From a virus: DNA of 29,075 nucleotides. Made by a program: the position numbers and the translations under genes. The notes below the pieces were generated by a model. The model was not told the origin of the DNA, searched no databases, and saw only the letters and a list, made by a program, of their open reading frames with translations. Of the stretch, positions 2,070 through 25,493 are shown one piece after another (position 1 is the stretch's first letter; each line of letters begins with the position of its first letter). The stretch is taken from IMG/VR virus record IMGVR_UViG_3300046504_000102, positions 1 through 29,075 of that record. One strand, written 5' to 3'.

Positions 2070-4034
2070 ATGGGCTATTTACACATCCAGAACCTTTACA
2101 AACAGCAGACAATCCTCTTATTTAGAGAGTGTTATGCAATGGAGAAAATTCACGGGACTTCCGCACACGTAGGTTGGAAATTCGCAACTAAATCAGTACA
2201 TTTGAGTAGTGGTGGCGAAAGTATTGATAAATTTTCTGCATTATTTAATACGGAAGCATTAAGTAATAAATTTATTGAAATTTTTCCAGATATTGATGTA
2301 ACAATTTATGGTGAAGCATACGGTGGATGTTTATGTTGTAGAACACCAATTTTATTGACTGATGGAAGTAAGATGTAAATTGGAAAAATTGTTAATAATA
2401 AATTAAATATTGATGTATTATCATATAATTTTTTAACAGAAAAATTAGAATCAAAAAAAGTAATAAATTGGTATAGAACAGAAAATAAAAATAATTGGAA
2501 AACAGTATATTTTGAAAGAAGATTCAGAGGTGGTAAATCTACTAAACTTATAGTAACAGATAATCATGTTTTCTATGTAGATTTTAATGGAACAACAATA
2601 GAAAAATCATGTAAAGATTTGAATGTTGGAGATGAAGTTTTTATACCACATGAAAAAATATCATATGTTCAAGAAGATGTAATTAGAGGTGGATTATTGG
2701 GTGATGGAAGTATGTCACATTCCAATAAAACCAGAAGTTATATTTTTAAGTTTTCACATTCATTAAAACAAAAAGATTATGCTGATTTTAAAGGAAAAAT
2801 ATTAAATTCAATAATAAATATTGTTAAAAATACCACAAGTGGGTTTGGGTCAGAATGCATTAGATATGATACAAAATCATTACCTGATTTAAGAAATATT
2901 TATTCCGAATTATATTCAATAGAAAATAAAAAATCAATTACTACAAATTACTTAAATAAATTATCACCATTAAGTATGGCAATTTGGTATATGGATGATG
3001 GGTCATTAAAAATAAATAAAATTGGTTCACACAGAAATACATCTATTTTATCAACACAAGGTTTTTCTGAAAATGAAAATGATATAATTGTAAATTGGTT
3101 TAATGAAAAAGGATTATTTTGTAGAAAAGAAGTAAGTGGTAAATATTTTATTGTTAAATTTACTCCTGATGGAACTGAAAAATTTCAGCAAATAATTGCA
3201 CCATATATTATTCCAGAAATGAGATATAAATTAAATGATGAATTCAAAGAAATTCCTTTTGTATTAAATGATGGTATTATTAAACAATCAAATATGAATT
3301 TAGTAAAAACAAAAATTCTTAAAATTGAAAATGGAAATCCATATCATAGACCTTCATATAATGAAAGATTTGATATTGAAGTTGAAGATAATCACAATTT
3401 TTTTGCAAATAATATTTTAGTTCATAATTCACAACAGGGACAATCTCATGTTTATGGCAAAGTTCTTAAATTTATCGGCTTTGACGTTCATGTTGGTGAT
3501 GTTTGGCTTAATGTGCCTAATGCAGAAGATGTTTGCAAACAATTCAATATTGAATTTGTTCATTATGAAAAAATTCCTGCAAATCTTGAAAATTTTAATA
3601 ATGAAAGAGATCAGTATTCAGTTCAGGCAATTCGTAATGGTATGGGTACTGGTCTTAAACGTGAAGGTATTGTTCTTCGTCCGTTGGTTGAAATGCGTAC
3701 TAATAATGGCGAAAGGGTTATTTGTAAATACAAACCAGATGAACAAATGGAAACTAAAACCAAACGTGAGGTAACTCCAGAACAGGTTAAGGTTCTTGCA
3801 GATGCTAAAGCAATAAGTGAGGAATGGGTTACAAATCTCAGATTAGAACATGTACTTCAGAAATTTCCTGTTGATATTAGCATGGAAGGCATACCTACAA
3901 TCATTAAGGCAATGATTGAAGACGTATACAGGGAAGGTAAAGGTGAGATAGTTGAATCACATGAAGCTACTAAAGCAATTGGTAGTAAAACTGTTCAATT
4001 ATTTAAACAGAAACTTAACAGTAATATAAAATAA
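2070..4034 (+). CDS. Rnl2-like RNA ligase, intein-interrupted, with in-frame TAA
   Basis: ATP-dependent RNA ligase that would seal 5'-phosphate/3'-OH RNA ends through a lysyl-AMP intermediate. The N-extein (86 aa) carries nucleotidyltransferase motif I, E-K-I-H-G with catalytic Lys26, and ends in the motif III-like Y-G-E-A-Y-G-G. The C-extein (201 aa, from 3429) resumes with Ser and has motif IV (E-G-I-V-L-R-P) and motif V (C-K-Y-K-P). The joined protein would be 287 aa, against 334 for T4 Rnl2. An intein separates the halves. TAA at 2376-2378 interrupts the frame, which is otherwise open from 2070 to 4034. As read, the ligase is therefore inactive unless the stop is suppressed or the downstream part is separately initiated and trans-spliced. 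The next gene starts in TAATG overlap. Confidence 0.85.
2328..3428 (+). mobile_element. LAGLIDADG intein in the RNA ligase
   Basis: The intein has 367 codon positions. It starts at Cys (2328) after the extein residues G-G and ends in V-H-N, followed by Ser (+1). That gives the expected Cys1, block-B T-D-N-H, penultimate His and terminal Asn. Two LAGLIDADG motifs are visible: G-G-L-L-G-D-G-S, about 20 residues after the block-B region, and I-W-Y-M-D-D-G-S in the middle. It is thus a splicing domain plus homing endonuclease. Insertion is next to ligase motif III, a conserved active-site position as is usual for inteins. The only defect seen is the TAA after residue 16. Confidence 0.9.
2376..2378 (+). 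other. in-frame TAA inside the intein N-terminus
   Basis: The reading frame of 2070 continues without another stop from 2379 to 4034, and the residues after the TAA (I-G-K-I-V-N-N-K) are normal intein sequence. The stop falls directly after intein residue 16. The first in-frame ATG/GTG/TTG downstream is TTG at 2619, beyond block B, so re-initiation there would lose essential intein residues. An ATT codon follows the stop directly. Confidence 0.85.
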
Positions 4035-4544: not shown

Positions 4545-4717
4545 TAATACTATACATTTATTTAGTAGTTTGTCTTATCTGGGGATGTTTTGCAGTCTAT
4601 AAAAATCATCAATATCCAATAAAACCAACTGTCATTAATCATTTTATAGTGTTTTTAATTAATTTTATTTTATTTCCATATTGTTTATATGTCGCATTAA
4701 AAAATAAAAAAACATGA
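4541..4717 (+). CDS. small membrane protein, 58 aa
   Basis: Two hydrophobic segments (residues ~2-19 and ~33-53), separated by a short polar stretch and ending in K-N-K-K-T, predict a two-pass inner-membrane protein. The ATG overlaps the preceding stop and its TGA overlaps the start of the AAA+ protease gene (ATGA). The coupling may mean it works with the protease, for example as a membrane adaptor, since the protease lacks the membrane anchor usual for M41 enzymes. That is inference. Confidence 0.6.
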   Translation: MIILYIYLVVCLIWGCFAVYKNHQYPIKPTVINHFIVFLINFILFPYCLYVALKNKKT

Positions 4718-6657
4718 ATACTAAATTTCTGGAACGAATTAAATCAAAAAGAGAAAAACTTGAAGAAATTAAATTTGCATTAAAAGATAAATTTATTGGG
4801 ATTGATGATGTTATTGATAAAATAATTGACAGTATTTCATTATGGTATCTAACGCCTGAACTTCAATTCAGACCACTTATTGTTTCATTATGGGGAATTA
4901 CTGGTGTGGGCAAAACTGACTTGGTTCGTACTCTGGTTAAATTATTAAAATTTACTGATAAATTCATCGAAATCCAAATGGACATGAAGAATGATTATTC
5001 AAGAAGTATTGAAAATTTTCTGGAAAGTAGTGGTATTGATTCTGCAGAACCCGCAATATTACTTCTTGATGAAATTCAAAGATATCGTACATTAAATGAA
5101 CAGGGTGAAATGGTTGAAAATAAATATTTTAATGATGTTTGGATGTTACTTTCAGATGGTAAATTTCAAAATAATTCACAACGCAGAGTTGAAATATTGG
5201 ATTTATTGTATGAAGAAATGTATTATTCCGATAGAATGTCTGATGATGAATCTTCTGATGGTGAAGAAGAAGATGAAGCACCGTCAAAAAAGAGTATGGG
5301 TAAAGGTAAAAACAAAGCAAAACCAAAAAAACCAAGAGTTTATAAATATAAAACATCTTATTGGACTGCAAGTCGTTTTAAAAAAATGCTTAATTTAAAA
5401 ATTTCTGCCGAAGAAATTATGAGAATGAGTCTTGAACAGCGAACGGAAATCATGGAAGATAGTTTGAAATTAGGTAATGTTAATGAAGGCAAGTCATATG
5501 AAAAATTATTAATATTTATTTCGGGCAATCTTGATGAAGCATTTACAATGGCTGATGAAGTTGAAGACAGTGAAAGAGATGCTGATATTTATCATGAACT
5601 TAGCAAAAGAATCAACATTATTCATATTAAACATGCACTTTCAAAACAGTTTAAACCAGAGCAGATTGCCAGATTTGGAAATAATCATGTTATTTATCCA
5701 TGCTTGGATAAAAAAAGTTATTACGAAATCATCAAAAAGAACTGTACAGTAATTCTTGATAGGGTTGAAACTGAACATCATATTAAAATTTCTTTATCTG
5801 ATAACATATATGATGCAATTTACAGAAATGGAGTGTTTCCAGCGCAGGGTGTAAGACCAGCAATTTCAACGGTTTATAATTTGCTTGGTAGTAATTTGCC
5901 ATATTTCTTGTATCTCTGTCTTGTGAATGATTTAAATGAAATGTCTCTTGATATTAAAAATAATCTTTTATTTACTGTTATTAACAGCAAAATATATGAT
6001 AAAGAAGTTGTTCTCGATATTGATCTTATTCGTGACGGTAAAACAATTGATGAAAAAATTATGGTAAAGGTTCATGAAATTGGTCATGCTTTATTATATG
6101 CAATATTATATAAAACTCCACCAAGGCAAATTAATATAAACAGTTCTGGTTTCTCAGAAGGTTTTGTCATTAATCATAGTTCGATTGAAAATAAAACATT
6201 TATAAGAAATCGTATTGCGGTTTATCTGGGCGGTATTGTTGCAGAAGAACTTGTATTTGGTGAAGAATTCAAATCAATTGGTGCATCTGCAGACATAGCA
6301 AATGCAACAGATACTGCAGGTTGTTATGTTAGAAAATATGCAATGGATGGGACTATTTCAAGGGTGATAAAAAAAGAAGCACCACAAGGATTAGAACTAA
6401 ACTATAATACTGATAAAACAGATGAAATTATTGAAGGCATATTAGGCGAAGAAAAGAAAAGGGCAAAAGATTTGTTGAATAAAAATATGGGTACTTATAA
6501 AGCACTTATAAAATATGCAATTGAAAAGAATAAGATTAGTGTTGAAAATTTTCTTGAAATTTGTAATACGAATGGCTTAAATTTGAAACAAACAGGAATT
6601 AACGATAAACTAAAATATTCCTATGACAAAATGGTTGATAAATTTTTGAAGCAATAA
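4714..6657 (+). CDS. Clp-type AAA+ ATPase fused to M41 (FtsH-like) metallopeptidase
   Basis: Predicted ATP-dependent protease of 647 aa. The AAA+ module has Walker A (61-68, G-I-T-G-V-G-K-T), Walker B (114-120, I-L-L-L-D-E), sensor 1 (I-S-G-N, 269-272), an Arg finger (F-K-P-E...A-R, R320) and a sensor 2 G-V-R-P (379-382). This set resembles Hsp100/Clp rather than FtsH AAA. The C-terminal part is M41: zinc motif H-E-I-G-H (454-458) and the third-ligand region G-A-S-A-D-I (D527), followed by helices. Residues 173-213 are a low-complexity acidic-then-basic insert between Walker B and sensor 1. There is no membrane segment, unlike FtsH. It could degrade host regulators or process phage proteins. 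The domain call is secure; the substrate is unknown. Confidence 0.85.
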   Translation: MNTKFLERIKSKREKLEEIKFALKDKFIGIDDVIDKIIDSISLWYLTPELQFRPLIVSLWGITGVGKTDLVRTLVKLLKFTDKFIEIQMDMKNDYSRSIENFLESSGIDSAEPAILLLDEIQRYRTLNEQGEMVENKYFNDVWMLLSDGKFQNNSQRRVEILDLLYEEMYYSDRMSDDESSDGEEEDEAPSKKSMGKGKNKAKPKKPRVYKYKTSYWTASRFKKMLNLKISAEEIMRMSLEQRTEIMEDSLKLGNVNEGKSYEKLLIFISGNLDEAFTMADEVEDSERDADIYHELSKRINIIHIKHALSKQFKPEQIARFGNNHVIYPCLDKKSYYEIIKKNCTVILDRVETEHHIKISLSDNIYDAIYRNGVFPAQGVRPAISTVYNLLGSNLPYFLYLCLVNDLNEMSLDIKNNLLFTVINSKIYDKEVVLDIDLIRDGKTIDEKIMVKVHEIGHALLYAILYKTPPRQININSSGFSEGFVINHSSIENKTFIRNRIAVYLGGIVAEELVFGEEFKSIGASADIANATDTAGCYVRKYAMDGTISRVIKKEAPQGLELNYNTDKTDEIIEGILGEEKKRAKDLLNKNMGTYKALIKYAIEKNKISVENFLEICNTNGLNLKQTGINDKLKYSYDKMVDKFLKQ

Positions 6658-10318: not shown

Positions 10319-11173
10319 TTAAATTATGTACCAACCTTTAAATGCTCCACTTTTTATTTTTCTCTTATTAGTATATGATTTTTGAAATATTGAAGATAAA
10401 TTCATTTTTTTTAATTCGGCTTGAAGATTAATGCATTCAAATTTATATTTTAAATTATTATTTTCATCATATATTTCATAACATTTAATATTAAAACGAT
10501 ATTTATTTGATTCAATAATTTTATTAATAGTTTCTTCAGAATGTTTATACCATTTACGACTTTCTATCATTTTTTCAATATGTTCCTTGGTTAATTTCCG
10601 TCCTAAACAATTTTTATTTCCTAAATGTGCTTCGCCTATTTTTCGTTTTTGCTCTTCAGTTGCTTTATATCCTTTATGAGAATCACTTAATTTTTGTCTA
10701 TGTTCTTTCGTAAGTTTTTTACCAATATGTGTTATTCTTAACTTTTCTTTAGATTCTTCAGAATGATGTTTGCCTAAAAACGACCTACTAGAATTTTCAC
10801 TTAATTTTTTTCTTGTTTCTTCGGAACATACTCTAAGTTTACTTGCTGCTCCGATTTTTAATTTTGTTTCGTCAGACATTTTATAATGATCACCACCAGT
10901 TGTTAAATTTAATCCATGTTCGGTATTAAATGTATCATAAAGTTTAATATAATATGCTTCTAAATCATTAAGTTCGGATTCTTGACATTCATGAATTAAT
11001 TCAAATATATGTATATCCCAACCATATTTAATAATAGAATGGTATAATTTTTGTTGACATTTACATCTAGCGTTTTTATAATTAGTAATTCTTGATTTTA
11101 TATTTGCCGATTGACCAATATAAATCTTGCCTGTTGGTGACGTTATTTTATATATACCACAAATTTTATTCAT
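10319..11173 (-). CDS. GIY-YIG homing endonuclease with NUMOD3 repeats (cassette 1)
   Basis: 284 aa. The N-terminal GIY-YIG domain has C-G-I-Y-K-I and K-I-Y-I-G-Q-S, with a conserved E-L-N-D-L-E-A helix. A series of NUMOD3-type DNA-binding repeats follows (S-E-E-T-K/R-x-K-x-S...G-K/R-x-x-x-x-E-x) across residues ~105-225. The last ~55 residues (Y-E-I-Y-D...G-A-F-K-G-W) resemble a NUMOD1-type target-recognition module. It is encoded against the main gene direction, starts inside the 51-aa RHH-like gene, and its stop abuts the helicase stop. It is free-standing, since no flanking intron is seen. Confidence 0.9.
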   Translation of the reverse strand: MNKICGIYKITSPTGKIYIGQSANIKSRITNYKNARCKCQQKLYHSIIKYGWDIHIFELIHECQESELNDLEAYYIKLYDTFNTEHGLNLTTGGDHYKMSDETKLKIGAASKLRVCSEETRKKLSENSSRSFLGKHHSEESKEKLRITHIGKKLTKEHRQKLSDSHKGYKATEEQKRKIGEAHLGNKNCLGRKLTKEHIEKMIESRKWYKHSEETINKIIESNKYRFNIKCYEIYDENNNLKYKFECINLQAELKKMNLSSIFQKSYTNKRKIKSGAFKGWYII

Positions 11174-12259: not shown

Positions 12260-12988
12260 TTATTTTTTTATTAAACGACTCTTTTTTTGTGCAATAGACA
12301 TATTATTTTTTTGCTCTTCAGTGCATTTTCTACCCATGTTGCTTAAACTTATTTTTTGTTTAGCTTCTTCACTACATTTTCTGCCTTTCATGCTATTAAT
12401 AAATTTTGCTATTTGTTTTTCAGTATGTTTTTTACCAGTATTTATAATTCTTAATTTTTCTTTACATTCTTTTGAACAAGGAATACCTTTTCTATTTAAT
12501 CTCATTTTTATTTTACTTTCTTCAGTGTGTTTTTTACCAGTATTTGCAATTCTTATTTTTTCTTTATGTTCATCGGTAAGTTTTTTTCCTAAATTTCTTC
12601 CCTTACTGGCTTTACTCATTTTTATTTTAGATTCATCAGATGCTCTTCTTCCAATAATTGCATTACCAATTTTTCTTTTTGTTTCTTCAGAAAGAATAGG
12701 GTTATTGCCACCGCTTGTTAAATTTAAACCATGTACACTATTAAATGTATTATATAATTTAATATAATATTTTTCCAAATCATTTAGTTCAGACTTATCA
12801 CATTTATGAATTATTTCAAAAATATGTTTATTCCAACCATATTTTTTAATTGAACGACATAATTTTATTTGATGTTTAGAACAAGATTTTTTATATGACG
12901 AATATCTACGCTTAATATCAACACTTTGCCCAATATAAATTTTACCTGTTGGTGATGTTATTTTATATATACCACAAATTTTATTCAC
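12260..12988 (-). CDS. GIY-YIG homing endonuclease with NUMOD3 repeats (cassette 2)
   Basis: 242 aa, starting with GTG inside the end of the RHH-like gene. The N-terminal ~100 residues are nearly the same as in cassette 1 (C-G-I-Y-K-I, K-I-Y-I-G-Q-S, L-N-D-L-E). The remaining ~140 residues are NUMOD3 repeats (G-R/K...S-E-E, G-K-K-H-T-E-E) that diverge from cassette 1. It lacks the NUMOD1-like tail of cassette 1. The different recognition domains suggest different target sites. The stop lies one base from the NADAR stop codon, in convergent orientation. Confidence 0.88.
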   Translation of the reverse strand: MNKICGIYKITSPTGKIYIGQSVDIKRRYSSYKKSCSKHQIKLCRSIKKYGWNKHIFEIIHKCDKSELNDLEKYYIKLYNTFNSVHGLNLTSGGNNPILSEETKRKIGNAIIGRRASDESKIKMSKASKGRNLGKKLTDEHKEKIRIANTGKKHTEESKIKMRLNRKGIPCSKECKEKLRIINTGKKHTEKQIAKFINSMKGRKCSEEAKQKISLSNMGRKCTEEQKNNMSIAQKKSRLIKK

Positions 12989-14940: not shown

Positions 14941-14994
14941 ATAATTTGGATATATTAATATTTAATAATACATTTGACAAATAAAATTTATAAT

Positions 14995-15210
14995 ATGGAA
15001 AAAGCACCATTAGAATCTGTAAAAGTTTATTCACCAATCGAAGACAAAGACGTTCGTACCAATCTTGGTAATTCACCAATTTTTAAAGGGGCACGTTATC
15101 ACGAAAGTGAACTTGCTTTGGCGAAGAAGAACCATGCAATATTGTATGAGTATATTTTTAAATTTGAAGGGTTAATACCGATTATGTTAACTAAAATGAG
15201 CAAATTATAA
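14995..15210 (+). CDS. hypothetical protein, 71 aa
   Basis: Small soluble protein with a charged N-terminal half and a C-terminal hydrophobic stretch (F-E-G-L-I-P-I-M-L). I chose the ATG at 14995 over an in-frame TTG at 14974 because ATG is the rule in this window. It lies just before the third GIY-YIG gene. Function unknown. Confidence 0.6.
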   Translation: MEKAPLESVKVYSPIEDKDVRTNLGNSPIFKGARYHESELALAKKNHAILYEYIFKFEGLIPIMLTKMSKL

Positions 15211-15239: not shown

Positions 15240-16085
15240 ATGACTTATCAAGGTGTTATTTATTGTGCTGTTTCTCCATCAGGGAAAAAATATTATGGAT
15301 TTGCATATAATTTACATAGAAGAAAATATATTCACAAGAGAGATTCTGTTGTAAAGAAAAACATTTTTTATAATGCAATAAAAAAATACGGCTTTGATAG
15401 TTTCATTTGGAACGTTATTGAAACATATAAAAATGATGATAAAGAATATATCAAAGTTATTTTACGAAAGCGAGAAAGATATTGGATAGAGAAAGATAAG
15501 ACATTTAATCCTGAATTTGGATATAATATGACACGTGGTGGCGATGGTGGAGATACTTTTTCAAACAAATCTGATGAAGATAAAGAAAAAATAAAATCAA
15601 AATTACGTAAATCATTAATTGAAAGTAAAACGCCATTATATAGTAAAACGTTTTATGAATGGTGGATAGAAAAATATGGAAAAGAAATTGCAGATAAAAA
15701 ATTAGAAGAATTTAAAAAAACAAATAGTGATTCACACAAAGGAAAAAGTCATCCGTGTTCTGAAGAAACAAAAGAAAAAATTGGAAAAAAACTTTTAGGA
15801 TATAAAATTTCCGAAGAAAGCAGACAAAATCGATTAGGTAATAAAAATGCAAGTGGTAAAAGAAGCGATGAGGCAATATTAAATATAAGTAAATCACATA
15901 TTGGATTACCTTCGCCAAATAAAGGAAAACACGCATCTAAAGAAACAAAAGATAAAATGAGTAAAGCAACAAGTGGTGAGAATCATCATAGTTTTGGAAA
16001 ACATTTTACCGAAGAACATAAAAGAAACTTAAGTATTTCGCACATAAAAAGAATTGAAAACTTAAAAGCTGAAATTAATAATTAA
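15240..16085 (+). CDS. GIY-YIG homing endonuclease with NUMOD3 repeats (third copy)
   Basis: 281 aa. The N-terminus G-V-I-Y-C-A-V...K-Y-Y-G-F is a diverged GIY-YIG motif (Y-Y-G for Y-I-G). An E-x-x-W-I-E-K helix and G-Y-N-M-T-R-G-G-D follow. Four or so NUMOD3 units (S-E-E-T-K-E-K-I-G, S-K-E-T-K-D-K-M-S, T-E-E-H-K-R-N-L-S) occupy residues ~170-275. Unlike the other two, it lies on the plus strand and has no RHH-like partner, so it is a separate insertion. Free-standing; its target site is unknown. Confidence 0.85.
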   Translation: MTYQGVIYCAVSPSGKKYYGFAYNLHRRKYIHKRDSVVKKNIFYNAIKKYGFDSFIWNVIETYKNDDKEYIKVILRKRERYWIEKDKTFNPEFGYNMTRGGDGGDTFSNKSDEDKEKIKSKLRKSLIESKTPLYSKTFYEWWIEKYGKEIADKKLEEFKKTNSDSHKGKSHPCSEETKEKIGKKLLGYKISEESRQNRLGNKNASGKRSDEAILNISKSHIGLPSPNKGKHASKETKDKMSKATSGENHHSFGKHFTEEHKRNLSISHIKRIENLKAEINN

Positions 16086-17337: not shown

Positions 17338-18150
17338 ATGAAAAAATTATTGTTTTTGGGACTTTTAATGCTATTCAGTATAACATTAACAGCACAAGAG
17401 AAAGGACATTTTCAAATTCTTATTGGATATGAAAATGATATGTATTCAAAACCGTATGATAGAAATTTTACTATTCTGCATGGTGGTTTTGGATATAAAA
17501 GTAATCTCGCTGCTATTTATGGCAACATCAATCTTGGGTATCTATATAAAACTCCTGATGGAGTTGCAGAAAATATTCAAAACAAAATTCAATATGAATT
17601 TGATTACTATCAAAGTTTAAGTAAAAGTAAATCAACTTCATTTTGGCTTAATTATGCGTATAGTCAAGATTTATTGTTTCCAAATCATAGATTCATTGGC
17701 GAATTATGGCAAAAATTACCCGCACATTTTTTAATTTCAGGTGGTGAAACACATTATATATATACTGGTGGTAATGCAACAATTTTAAATGTAGGATTAG
17801 AAAACTACTTCGGTAGATATTGGTTAGAATTTAAAACATATTTCTTTTTAAAGCAACCAAGTACTACATATTCATATTTCTTAACTGGAAGAATTTTCTT
17901 TAAAGATGTTAACTACCTACAACTTAGTGCAGGTATTGGTTCAGCACAAGATGAACCATTTATACTTACCACTGATTTAAATAGATTGGATGCAAAAACT
18001 ACAAGTATTAAATATGTGACAAATATATTTAAAGCAAGAATGAGAATTAGTGGTGGCTTCACATACATGTATGAGCAATATCAAGCAGATGTGTGGAGAA
18101 ACAGATATGCATTTGGAGTTGGTTTAATCTATAATATAACGAAACCATGA
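17338..18150 (+). CDS. YaiO-family outer-membrane beta-barrel protein
   Basis: 270 aa with a clear Sec signal peptide (M-K-K-L-L-F-L-G...L-T-A-Q, residues 1-20). The rest is alternating aromatic/hydrophobic amphipathic strands throughout, ending in an aromatic-rich final strand (Y-A-F-G-V-G-L-I-Y). The overall pattern fits the YaiO-type barrel. Such proteins are associated with exopolysaccharide export and lie beside GT2 synthases in bacteria. Its stop overlaps the next start (ATGA), and the third gene of the set is a GT2 synthase. An outer-membrane, export-type protein is unusual cargo for a lytic phage. The barrel and signal peptide are secure; the polysaccharide role is inferred from neighbours. 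Confidence 0.75.
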   Translation: MKKLLFLGLLMLFSITLTAQEKGHFQILIGYENDMYSKPYDRNFTILHGGFGYKSNLAAIYGNINLGYLYKTPDGVAENIQNKIQYEFDYYQSLSKSKSTSFWLNYAYSQDLLFPNHRFIGELWQKLPAHFLISGGETHYIYTGGNATILNVGLENYFGRYWLEFKTYFFLKQPSTTYSYFLTGRIFFKDVNYLQLSAGIGSAQDEPFILTTDLNRLDAKTTSIKYVTNIFKARMRISGGFTYMYEQYQADVWRNRYAFGVGLIYNITKP

Positions 18151-19373
18151 GATATAGAATTAAAATTTTAATACCCGTATTAATAGTAATTATATTATTT
18201 ATTGGTAGTTTTGTAATGCAGACTAAATATAACACAGTTATAATGAATGCATTGACAGGACATGGTGCTGAAACACTTTTTCTTAAACAAATTGTAATAC
18301 TTGGGACTTCGTTTGCGTTCATGAACTTGTTAATTGGTTCTGTTGTGATTTGTTTTGTCACTATGATTTTTATACTAATTTTTGTTTTACTTAACAGAAG
18401 AAGAATGGAAAGGAGAGCAAAAATTAAAGAAAGTCTGACAGAAGTGTATCAAAAATTAATACTGGATGCAATTGCAGATAAAATCATTACTAAAGATGAA
18501 TTCAAACAGTTCAAAAAAATCTGTAATGGACATTTTAGGAAAAACATATTAATTGATCAGATTATTGATGTTGCAGTAGTAATGCCAATCAATGTATTGA
18601 CAAAATTAAGGCAACTGTATGTCGATTTGGACTTATTAAATGAAACAGAAAGAAAATTATATAGTTGGCAATGGCATAAGAAGATCAAAGCAATGAAAGA
18701 ATTATCGCATCTTGATATTGACGATTATAATAAAACAATTGTCAAATATGTCAATAGTAAAAATGATATTCTTAGAATGGAAGCACAGATTGCAATGGTT
18801 AGACTCAGTGATTTTGATCAAAACCCTTTCTCGTTTTTACGTGATCTTAAACATGATTTTTCATTATGGGAACAAATAACTTTACATCAATTGATGGTTG
18901 AAGCTGATATGAAAGTTCCTGACTTTGGTGAATGGATATATTCTGATAATATAACTGTAAATATGTTTTGCATGAGAATGATACGTGAATATAAACAGGA
19001 TTGGAATGTAGAAAAACTGACAGTAATGTTATCTCATGCAGTTGATAAAGTAAGAAATCTTACCATACAAGTTGTTGGTGATTTAAAATTAGTAAGTCTC
19101 ACTAAAAATTTAATGGAAAAATACAAAGAAGAAACTTATGCAAATCAACTTGAGATAGTAAAATCTTTGGGCAAAATAGCAGATCAAAGTTCTGTTGAAT
19201 TTTTACAGAATGTTGTAGATATTGAAACTGATACTGACTTACAAATAGAAGGAGTTAAAGCCATCTATGAATTAGGTGAAACAGGTAAAGTAGCTCTCGA
19301 AAAAATGATGAATTCTAATTATAAGGATTACAACATTATTATAAAACATGTTCTTGATAATAAAATTAATTAA
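18147..19373 (+). CDS. membrane-anchored HEAT-like repeat protein
   Basis: 408 aa. Two or three N-terminal hydrophobic segments (residues ~7-25 and ~47-83) are followed by a basic R-R-R-M-E-R-R-A-K stop-transfer region. About 300 cytoplasmic, helical residues follow, and the last ~150 (S-L-T-K-N-L-M-E-K...I-V-K-S-L-G-K-I-A...V-K-A-I-Y-E-L-G-E-T-G) read as HEAT-type repeats. Such proteins can scaffold other proteins. Its position between the barrel and the synthase (ATGA overlap upstream, 11-base gap downstream) suggests it links or regulates the synthase at the inner membrane. No enzyme motif is seen. Confidence 0.65.
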   Translation: MRYRIKILIPVLIVIILFIGSFVMQTKYNTVIMNALTGHGAETLFLKQIVILGTSFAFMNLLIGSVVICFVTMIFILIFVLLNRRRMERRAKIKESLTEVYQKLILDAIADKIITKDEFKQFKKICNGHFRKNILIDQIIDVAVVMPINVLTKLRQLYVDLDLLNETERKLYSWQWHKKIKAMKELSHLDIDDYNKTIVKYVNSKNDILRMEAQIAMVRLSDFDQNPFSFLRDLKHDFSLWEQITLHQLMVEADMKVPDFGEWIYSDNITVNMFCMRMIREYKQDWNVEKLTVMLSHAVDKVRNLTIQVVGDLKLVSLTKNLMEKYKEETYANQLEIVKSLGKIADQSSVEFLQNVVDIETDTDLQIEGVKAIYELGETGKVALEKMMNSNYKDYNIIIKHVLDNKIN

Positions 19374-19384
19374 TACTTAAAGTT

Positions 19385-20782
19385 ATGTGGTTTTTTATAA
19401 ATTTCGTATTTTTATTTACATTGGTTCTTTTCTTTAGCTATTTTAGCTTGGGATATTTTTCGGTTAAAAAATTGAGAAATCATGTGAAAAGAAATAGTTA
19501 TGTTGATTATAACAGTGTCGCAACTTCTTCATTAGCACCTTCAGTATCAATTATTGCTCCTGCATATAATGAAAGTGCAAATATTGTTGATAGCGTAAGA
19601 ACACTTATGAACTTACAATATAGAAACTTTGAAGTGATAATTGTTAATGATGGTTCAACCGATAATACTTTTGCATTATTGAAGAACAATTTTAAATTAG
19701 AAAAACGTAATTACTTCTTTGAATATAAAATACCTTGTAAAAGAATAAAAGGCATTTACAAATCAACCAGTAAAGAATTTTTCAGATTAACAGTTGTTGA
19801 TAAAATTAATGGTGGTTGTAAGGCAGATGCAAGTAATGCAGGTGTTAATATTTGTCGTAATGATCTTGTACTTATTATGGATGCCGATTCTGTTATTGAG
19901 CCAGATTCAATTACCAAACTTGTTAAGCCATTTCTTGAAGAAAAAAAGAAAAAGGTTATTGGTACTGGTGGAGTCGTCAGGATTATGAATTCATGTACTG
20001 TTGAGGACGGTAAAATAAAGAAAATCAATCTACCTGCAAAATTCTTACCAAGATGGCAAGCACTTGAATATACACGTGCATTTTTGCTTGGTAGAATGGC
20101 ATGGTCACAACTTGATGGATTACTTCTTATATCAGGCGCAATGGGTTTATTTGACAGAGATATCCTTGTCAAAGCAGGTGGATATGATGCCAAAGCAATT
20201 GGTGAGGACATGGAAATGGTTATTCGTATGAGAAGATATATGGCTGAAAAAAAACAAGATTATATTGTTACATATATTCCAGACCCATTATGTTGGACTG
20301 AAGTTCCTGCTGATTATAAATCACTGGAAAGTCAAAGAGCAAGGTGGGCACGTGGTCTTGTTTATGCACTAAGAAAACATAAGATAATGTTTTTAAATAG
20401 AATATATAAGAGATTAGGTATGTTAGGTTATCCGTTCTGGCTGTTCTTTGAATGGTTAGCACCACTTCTTGCATTCGTTGGTTTTGCATTTACTATTTAT
20501 CTTGCAGTCAGTGGCGCAATTAATTGGAAATTTTTCTTCTTACTTTATTTGTTTATTTATTCATTTGCCATATTCATGTCCTCATGGTCTGTTTTATTTG
20601 AAGAATTAACATTTCATAAGTATGCAAGAAAAAGAGACGTAATAAAATTATTAGCAATGGCATTTGTAGAACCTCTTATTTATCCAATGATTGCATGGTT
20701 TTCAGTTAAAGGAAACTGGCAATATATTCGTGGAGTAGAAGGTTGGGGTACTATTATAAAAAAAGGTGCTGATAAAAAATAA
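19385..20782 (+). CDS. processive family-2 glycosyltransferase (membrane polysaccharide synthase)
   Basis: 465 aa. N-terminal membrane helix (3-25). The GT2 domain has N-D-G-S-T-D (88-93), K-A-D-A-S-N (146-151), D-A-D-S (166-169, metal-binding DxD), G-E-D (273-275, catalytic base region) and Q-R-A-R-W (317-321), the Q-x-x-R-W of processive synthases such as PgaC/BcsA. Several membrane helices lie between ~345 and 460. It would polymerise a nucleotide sugar and extrude the chain across the inner membrane. The sugar cannot be told from sequence. With the YaiO-like barrel it could form a synthesis/export path. Length and motifs look intact. Confidence 0.9.
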   Translation: MWFFINFVFLFTLVLFFSYFSLGYFSVKKLRNHVKRNSYVDYNSVATSSLAPSVSIIAPAYNESANIVDSVRTLMNLQYRNFEVIIVNDGSTDNTFALLKNNFKLEKRNYFFEYKIPCKRIKGIYKSTSKEFFRLTVVDKINGGCKADASNAGVNICRNDLVLIMDADSVIEPDSITKLVKPFLEEKKKKVIGTGGVVRIMNSCTVEDGKIKKINLPAKFLPRWQALEYTRAFLLGRMAWSQLDGLLLISGAMGLFDRDILVKAGGYDAKAIGEDMEMVIRMRRYMAEKKQDYIVTYIPDPLCWTEVPADYKSLESQRARWARGLVYALRKHKIMFLNRIYKRLGMLGYPFWLFFEWLAPLLAFVGFAFTIYLAVSGAINWKFFFLLYLFIYSFAIFMSSWSVLFEELTFHKYARKRDVIKLLAMAFVEPLIYPMIAWFSVKGNWQYIRGVEGWGTIIKKGADKK

Positions 20783-24275: not shown

Positions 24276-25493
24276 ATGCGATTAGTTGAACAACACATTA
24301 TAAATAAAAGTAATACTCTTTTTAAAGAGATTGATGATTTATGCTTTTTATCAAAAAATCTTTACAATAAAGCTAATTATATTATTAGACAAGAATTTAT
24401 TAAAACATCAAAAGAAAAAAAAGAAGGTAAATTAGATCATGCTAATTGGATTAATTATTATCAACTACAAAAACAACTGCAAAATGATAAGGATGTTGAC
24501 TATATTGCACTTCCAAGAAAAGTAAGTCAACAAATCTTAAAAACATTAGATAAAAATTGGAAATCATTCTTCAAATTCATTCATAATGGCAGACCCAATT
24601 TACCAAACTATAAACATAAAACTAAAGGCAGAAATTTATTAGTTTACACTATTCAAGCAATTTCAAAAAAAGAATTAAAAAATAATATTGTTCGTTTATC
24701 TCAAACAAATATTAGAATACAAACAAAGCAAAAAGACATTCAAGAAGTAAGAATAATACCAAAATTAAAACATTACATAATTGAAATAATTTATAAAAAG
24801 GAGGTACAAGATTTAAAATTAAATAAAAATAATATTGCTGGAATTGATTTAGGAGTAAATAATTTATGTACTATAACATCAAATGTAAATAACATTAAAC
24901 CTGTTATCATTAACGGTAGACCATTAAAATCCATAAATCAATATTATAATAAAAAGAAAGCTAAATTACAATCATTTGTTGGTGATAAATCTTCTAATAA
25001 AATTCATAATTTAACTAATAAAAGAAATAGAAAAATTAATAATTATTTACATAATGTGAGTAGAATAATTATTAATTTCCTTATTCAAAATAATGTTGGA
25101 ATATTAGTAATTGGTAAGAATAAATTGTGGAAGACTGAAATAAATATGAATAAGAAAAATAATCAGTCTTTCGTAAATATACCACATGCCAGATTAATTA
25201 ACATGATTGAATATAAAGCTGAGTTAGTTGGAATTGATGTTGTTATTACCGAAGAAAGTTACACGAGTAAGTGTAGTTTTATTGACGATGAAAAACTATG
25301 CCATCATGAGAATTATCTTGGTAGAAGAATTCATCGTGGTTTATTTAAATCAAGTAATAATGTTTTAATTAATGCTGACTGTAATGGTAGTGGTAATATA
25401 ATAAGAAAAGCATTTTCAAAAGCATTTGCTGATGGAATAGAGGGTGTTGTAGTTCATCCAATAAGAATTAATCCTTATAAACTTGTTTCATAA
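24276..25493 (+). CDS. tnpB: TnpB-family RNA-guided endonuclease (IS200/IS605 OrfB type), no TnpA
   Basis: 405 aa, close to full-length TnpB (408 in ISDra2). RuvC I is G-I-D-L-G-V-N-N (D191). Downstream are E-E-S-Y-T-S-K-C (326-333), R-R-I-H-R-G-L-F, I-N-A-D-C-N-G (D368) and the terminal G-I-E-G-V-V-V-H-P. Where RuvC II normally has Glu, the sequence reads V-I-G-K-N (G280). The zinc-finger cysteines are reduced (C333, C342, C369). No TnpA and no clear element ends are visible. A guide RNA would be expected to overlap the 3' end (about 25400-25555). It may act as a homing-type nuclease in the phage or be a decayed insertion. Confidence 0.85.
   Translation: MRLVEQHIINKSNTLFKEIDDLCFLSKNLYNKANYIIRQEFIKTSKEKKEGKLDHANWINYYQLQKQLQNDKDVDYIALPRKVSQQILKTLDKNWKSFFKFIHNGRPNLPNYKHKTKGRNLLVYTIQAISKKELKNNIVRLSQTNIRIQTKQKDIQEVRIIPKLKHYIIEIIYKKEVQDLKLNKNNIAGIDLGVNNLCTITSNVNNIKPVIINGRPLKSINQYYNKKKAKLQSFVGDKSSNKIHNLTNKRNRKINNYLHNVSRIIINFLIQNNVGILVIGKNKLWKTEINMNKKNNQSFVNIPHARLINMIEYKAELVGIDVVITEESYTSKCSFIDDEKLCHHENYLGRRIHRGLFKSSNNVLINADCNGSGNIIRKAFSKAFADGIEGVVVHPIRINPYKLVS

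Follow-up and report, generated by a model that had tools for sequence, protein, structure and literature searches.

A Phage-Borne YaiO–HEAT–GT2 Cassette Predicted to Synthesise and Export a Surface Polysaccharide

Introduction

Phages are known for degrading or chemically modifying the surface sugars of their hosts, and the locus described here raises the question of whether a phage could also carry the machinery to build a new surface. The window under study is the whole of the IMG/VR virus record IMGVR_UViG_3300046504_000102, 29,075 bases that are classed as linear and, because of this class, probably represent a fragment of a larger genome. At positions 17338–20782, the window contains a cassette of three genes encoding a YaiO-family outer-membrane beta-barrel, a HEAT-repeat protein, and a processive-type family 2 glycosyltransferase (GT2). 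An initial annotation took these genes for a polysaccharide synthesis and export operon that could coat the infected cell, block other phages, or alter biofilm. The present analysis supports the phage-borne nature of this bacterial-type machinery, whose activity in synthesis and export is predicted from protein family and fold, and keeps coating of the infected cell, the block of other phages, and biofilm change as candidate roles.

The YaiO–HEAT–GT2 Cassette

The cassette consists of three complete open reading frames (ORFs) on the + strand in the order YaiO, HEAT, and GT2; there is an overlap of 4 bp between the first and the second and a gap of 11 bp between the second and the third. The three consecutive, intact genes of the initial annotation are indeed present, in the reverse of the order (GT2, HEAT, YaiO) in which they had been listed. 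Their GC content, GC content at third codon positions (GC3), and codon use are inside the spread of the other window genes, in agreement with the phage-like base composition previously claimed. No terminator was seen immediately 3' of GT2, Bacteroidota-type promoter motifs did not have a consistent placement in the window, and a sigma-70 promoter scan of the window found 40 sites versus 40.1 expected, which is chance level and uninformative.

The GT2 protein (19385–20782, + strand, 465 aa) is predicted to be a membrane-integrated enzyme of the processive type from its matches to PF00535 (4.1e-23), PF13641, and PF13632, its motifs, and its structural model. The D, DxD, ED, and QxxRW motifs are all present, and the residues that form them (D89, D166/D168, E274-D275, and Q317-R318-x-R320-W321) are invariant across 27 homologues, which bears out the full catalytic set attributed to the enzyme. 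The AlphaFold2 model (predicted local distance difference test score, pLDDT, 88.6) exhibits a GT-A domain, one N-terminal and three C-terminal long membrane helices, that is, a GT-A domain fused to a putative channel-forming set of membrane helices. In a Foldseek comparison of this model with the PDB, the best matches (E 4.5e-15) were hyaluronan synthases at the top, including that of a Chlorella virus, followed by chitin and cellulose synthases.

The HEAT-repeat protein (18147–19373, + strand, 408 aa) seems to be anchored in the inner membrane. It matches PF13646 (HEAT_2) with an E-value of 9.7e-6, slightly below the cut-off, and its AlphaFold2 model (pLDDT 86.9) shows long helices at residues 2–37 and 43–109, followed by an alpha-solenoid of helical pairs; this near-threshold match and the confident model, with two N-terminal helices and then a solenoid, uphold the earlier description of a membrane-anchored HEAT-like protein. 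Both the model and the profile match designed HEAT-type alphaRep proteins, and, besides proteins of this designed type, the model has structural matches only to generic HEAT/armadillo solenoids. Moreover, a basic juxtamembrane stretch, NRRRMERRAK, follows the second membrane helix of the N-terminal hairpin and, according to the positive-inside rule, would place the solenoid in the cytoplasm. The protein is predicted to act as a partner or scaffold of the GT2 synthase.

The YaiO-family protein (17338–18150, + strand, 270 aa) exceeds the cut-offs of PF19413 (E 1.6e-25; 90.5 bits versus 23.9) and TIGR04390 (1.4e-19; 71 bits versus 32) and starts with a signal-peptide-like N-terminus, MKKLLFLGLLMLFSITLTAQ, as expected of the YaiO-type barrel with signal peptide that had been proposed. 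An outer-membrane location is predicted from the family and this N-terminus, and the protein could function as the outer-membrane exit pore. The phage protein does not have the N-terminal TPR part of most bacterial copies, and barrel-only copies, judged from length, are also found in E. coli and Emticicia. The complete inner-to-outer membrane arrangement ascribed to the locus is correct insofar as three envelope-type genes are present, but “complete” was slightly strong, since the phage protein lacks the periplasmic TPR part that most YaiO proteins from bacteria possess.

Occurrence in Other Phages

An alignment of GT2 and its bacterial relatives was used to scan viral contigs, and two contigs were recovered, L016 (44.9 kb) and L017 (405 kb), both with YaiO, HEAT, and GT2 in the same order. 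The identity to the window proteins is 61% for GT2, 44–45% for HEAT, and 31–43% for YaiO; both YaiO copies are likewise above the curated family cut-off, the signal-peptide-like start is found in all three phage copies, and all of them lack the TPR part. In both contigs, the cassette is located 3.5–7 kb from the genes of a T4-like prohead protease (S77) and a Gp23 major capsid protein. The L017 record contains 39 tRNA genes, a tmRNA-like gene, and genes for the large terminase, tail sheath, UvsX, and a DnaB-like helicase, and this gene content, together with its 405 kb, indicates a jumbo phage. The claim that the cassette is phage-borne, and not a contaminant or a misassembly, is thus supported by two further phage contigs.

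When all window ORFs were compared with L016 and L017, matches were obtained only for the cassette, a 78-aa ORF, homing endonucleases, and, weakly, a deformylase; a cassette that is shared while nearly all else differs has either passed between phages or been retained to an unusual degree. The 405-kb phage lacks the window helicase; the window and this phage are therefore not close relatives. In each of the three protein trees, the phage copies group together as a single clade (Shimodaira–Hasegawa-like approximate likelihood ratio test, SH-aLRT, 99 each), a result consistent with a single acquisition of the cassette by a phage lineage. The 78-aa ORF, at 14974–15210 of the window, has homologues (34%) in L016 and L017 that are likewise situated upstream of the cassette, and it is possibly linked to the cassette.

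Further scans of viral contigs with alignments of the phage GT2, HEAT, and YaiO proteins found nothing beyond L016 and L017, single-protein scans of viral contigs for close relatives gave no matches, and neither YaiO nor HEAT had a match among 50,697 phage records. No phage system of this composition is described in PHROGs, INPHARED, or the literature searched, where nothing on point was found on YaiO, on operons of HEAT and GT2, or on phage exopolysaccharide synthesis. Two candidates were discarded as phage examples. MT836222, the best match in the phage collection, is a gut contig of 60% GC with no recognisable phage gene, whose content is CotH-like, HEAT-like, GT2, and GGDEF/EAL-type (domain names read from sequence), and L099 is a contig with tail genes that has, at its edge, an operon of bacterial type with a LytTR regulator. 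This operon (L099:5967–9425), composed of a LytTR response regulator, HEAT, and a GT2 that is 41% identical to that of the window, lies at one contig end, with baseplate genes on the same contig; it may represent the edge of a prophage or a conversion cassette of a temperate phage.

A broader GT2 scan revealed a different kind of pair in L100–L102, in which a secreted, barrel-like protein of 125–134 aa is encoded directly upstream of a GT2 synthase (L100:7466–9239, L101:3963–5761, and L102:2555–4329). The small protein has a signal peptide, matches OMP_b-brl weakly in two of the three cases, and has no match in PHROGs or the phage collection; its GT2 neighbour is 28–32% identical to the window GT2, and endolysin and holin genes are found nearby in L101. 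These loci hint at a repeated recruitment of synthase and outer-membrane-barrel pairs by phages.

Two other observations were made on phage contigs. The 405-kb phage (G006) contains a tRNA called Pyl with anticodon CTA (L067:13926–13999), a possible amber-suppressor tRNA. A 45-kb phage contig (G007) has a dense glycan-type locus near the major capsid gene (L070:491–15901), with two GT2 matches over the cut-off and transketolase-, radical-SAM-, DegT-aminotransferase-, and FkbM-methyltransferase-like genes, named by eye from sequence.

The Bacterial Operon

This GT2 subfamily is present in 61 of 297 sampled Bacteroidota genomes, with proteins approximately 40–50% identical to the window GT2 over the full length. 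Gene order was analysed in a sampled set of 24 bacterial loci and an extended set of 21, which overlap and were both chosen by GT2 score. HEAT immediately precedes GT2 in 22 of the 24 sampled loci and in all 21 extended loci; in the extended set, YaiO immediately precedes HEAT–GT2 in 7 of 20 loci and is within 7 kb of GT2 for 16 of the 21 GT2 genes. In the seven genomes with the exact order, a receiver-domain protein precedes the three genes in every case and a hybrid histidine kinase in six, and at least 16 of 20 loci have a receiver gene adjoining the operon. In other bacterial loci, YaiO is located after GT2 or nearby, frequently accompanied by a membrane enzyme of the sulfatase family, which in three loci is fused to GT2, and the operon neighbour on an Emticicia plasmid is annotated as belonging to the LTA synthase family. 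Moreover, the Mesorhizobium plasmid pMc1192 (L096) contains a kinase, two response regulators, YaiO, HEAT, and GT2, in that order; therefore, the operon also exists outside Bacteroidota. As judged from gene order, YaiO–HEAT–GT2 forms the core of an operon that is widespread in bacteria and apparently undescribed, and whose genes run histidine kinase–response regulator–TPR-YaiO–HEAT–GT2.

The operons of Bacteroidota (for example, L073–L079) and Mesorhizobium (L096) share with the phage cassette the same three families, order, and strand. However, they also include a hybrid kinase, receiver and/or Hpt proteins, the TPR part of YaiO, and often a sulfatase/LTA-synthase-type enzyme, all of which are absent from the phage copies. 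No Response_reg (receiver) domain was found in any of the three phage records, nor was a sulfatase/LTA-synthase-type partner (PF00884), which is frequent, though not universal, in bacteria. The regulators would have been lost by the phage copies rather than never possessed, and their absence suggests that the phosphorelay only controls the bacterial operon. The initial annotation knew of no described phage system of this composition, and none was found in PHROGs, INPHARED, or the literature searched, but the composition itself is that of a common bacterial operon minus its regulators; the three-gene set, for which a search of phages and bacteria had been proposed, is present in L016, L017, and bacterial operons.

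Phage Character of the Window

The window has approximately 28% GC, nearly all of its coding on one strand, and many short ORFs. It encodes a Dda-like helicase (PHROG match 4.2e-81) whose closest relatives are those of crAss-like phages, with 33–35% identity. Further genes of phage character are an RNA ligase with a LAGLIDADG intein (2070–4034), with a single in-frame stop at 2376–2378 within the N-terminal part of the intein and a frame otherwise open, three GIY-YIG/NUMOD3-type homing endonuclease genes (10319–11173, 12260–12988, and 15240–16085), two of which are on the minus strand of a window that otherwise codes on the + strand, NADAR, and peptide deformylase. No structural gene was recognised among the window ORFs and, thus, the window by itself is insufficient to settle its phage nature, which is settled by the cassette-bearing relatives; no DNA-level relative of the window was found in the phage collection. 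The window also encodes an apparently stand-alone TnpB/Cas12f-like protein (24276–25493; OrfB_IS605, Cas12f1-like TNB domain) and a soluble-looking fusion of AAA and FtsH-type peptidase M41 domains (4714–6657), for which tblastn of the 50,697 phage records detected no relative.

Proposed Mechanism and Alternatives

The three genes probably constitute one functional cassette, taken once by a phage lineage from a chromosomal operon of Bacteroidota type and kept by selection, which would act as a regulator-free synthase and exporter that coats the infected cell, most likely against competing phages. The steps of this mechanism are deduced from what is known of the processive GT2 family, from the fold match, and from the conserved pairing of the genes. 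GT2 would polymerise a nucleotide sugar at the cytoplasmic face, which the host must supply because no gene for sugar-nucleotide synthesis was recognised, and would pass the chain across the membrane by a channel of its own. Next to GT2, the membrane-anchored HEAT protein could scaffold or activate the synthase, and the YaiO barrel would be the exit of the polymer across the outer membrane. With the phosphorelay absent from the phage copies, polymer output would follow phage gene expression and not a host signal. The infected cell would gain a capsule or slime layer, and the most likely use of this coat would be to hide receptors from competing phages or to shield the infected cell in another way.

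Several points weigh against this proposal. GT2 scores 116.7 bits with the NCBIfam PgaC equivalog, far below the cut-off of 422.3 bits, and by this measure is not a PgaC/IcaA poly-N-acetylglucosamine synthase. A sequence search of the PDB gave generic GT2 and generic HEAT entries and no YaiO match, with no solved structure for the GT2 subfamily, the HEAT partner, or YaiO, and the literature searched contained no described function for any of them. Neither a periplasmic scaffold nor a sugar-nucleotide gene was recognised near the cassette, which is known from only three phage contigs, two of them, including the window, being fragments.

Alternatively, GT2 could modify an existing host glycan through a GtrB-like conversion of lipopolysaccharide/O-antigen or capsule, YaiO being an unrelated surface protein. 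The best PHROG match of GT2 is to the GtrB-like O-antigen conversion family phrog_841 (5.6e-9), and O-antigen conversion is a well-known kind of phage moron. Nevertheless, this match is limited to residues 53–101, the generic start of the GT2 fold, whereas QxxRW and the C-terminal channel-type helices fit processive synthases; in addition, no flippase-like GtrA gene was recognised nearby and YaiO is co-conserved with HEAT–GT2 in phages and bacteria alike, so glycan modification appears improbable. YaiO might also be the active part, as a protein that alters or masks a receptor, with HEAT and GT2 as passengers. Phages do encode outer-membrane or lipoproteins, such as Cor and Llp, that block receptors, but YaiO is the least conserved protein of the cassette and GT2 the most, the opposite of what this explanation predicts, and we give it very little weight. 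Finally, a bacterial contaminant, a prophage-edge chimera, or a misassembly might be suspected in a 29-kb linear fragment with no recognised structural gene, especially as the virus-catalogued L099 ends in a bacterial-type response regulator–HEAT–GT2 operon beside tail genes. An artefact is, however, scarcely credible, since the same cassette occurs near capsid genes in two independent phage contigs, one of them of 405 kb, codon use and GC match those of the neighbouring genes, and the phage copies are monophyletic.

A polymer made for another benefit has better prospects, although we would not call it probable: slime could hold the progeny near the biofilm, stabilise a long-lived infected state, or protect from grazers. 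In two phages, the cassette is close to the genes for the prohead protease and the capsid, which would fit late expression, and chloroviruses make hyaluronan on infected cells (PMC5408694), but the sequence does not favour one benefit over another. If the infected cell is coated as proposed, a phage with its own polymer synthase and outer-membrane barrel would build a new surface, and this would offer a mechanism, open to experimental test, by which large environmental phages exclude superinfection or change biofilm. Moreover, the phage version would be a natural minimal set that points to YaiO–HEAT–GT2 as the core of the bacterial operon. A broader generalisation is offered only tentatively: large Bacteroidota phages might carry a complete, regulator-free polysaccharide factory, synthase–barrel pairs might have been recruited at least twice independently (YaiO–HEAT–GT2 and the pairs of L100–L102), and coat-making might be a general phage strategy.

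Comparison with Known Systems

The E. coli yaiP-yaiX-yaiO-yaiS locus resembles the phage cassette in combining a GT2 gene (yaiP) and a YaiO barrel, but it is chromosomal, lacks a HEAT partner, and has a deacetylase and an acyltransferase (disrupted in K-12). The synthase systems for poly-N-acetylglucosamine (PgaABCD), cellulose (Bcs), and hyaluronan (HasA) share with the phage cassette a processive membrane GT2 with D, DxD, ED, and QxxRW, and the fold of the phage GT2 matches hyaluronan, chitin, and cellulose synthases; Gram-negative polysaccharide synthase systems such as Pga and Bcs also include an outer-membrane barrel. However, the phage GT2 falls far short of the equivalog cut-offs for PgaC/IcaA and CelA, a HEAT partner is found where those systems have PgaD, BcsB, or PilZ parts, and YaiO replaces PgaA or BcsC. 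The GtrA/GtrB/Gtr systems of O-antigen conversion likewise have a phage GT2 that acts at the cell envelope, but GtrB works with a lipid-linked sugar and a flippase, without an outer-membrane barrel or a QxxRW-type synthase; the window cassette, where phrog_841 covers only part of the GT2 and no flippase-like gene was recognised adjacent, does not correspond to a Gtr serotype-conversion cassette. The closest viral precedent is A098R of chlorovirus PBCV-1, a processive GT2 encoded by the virus itself, whose polymer coats infected cells and whose structure is among the top fold matches, the hyaluronan forming a dense fibrous network over the infected algal cells (PMC5408694). In this case, however, the virus infects a eukaryotic alga, and the coat depends on a single protein, with no outer membrane, exporter, or HEAT partner involved.

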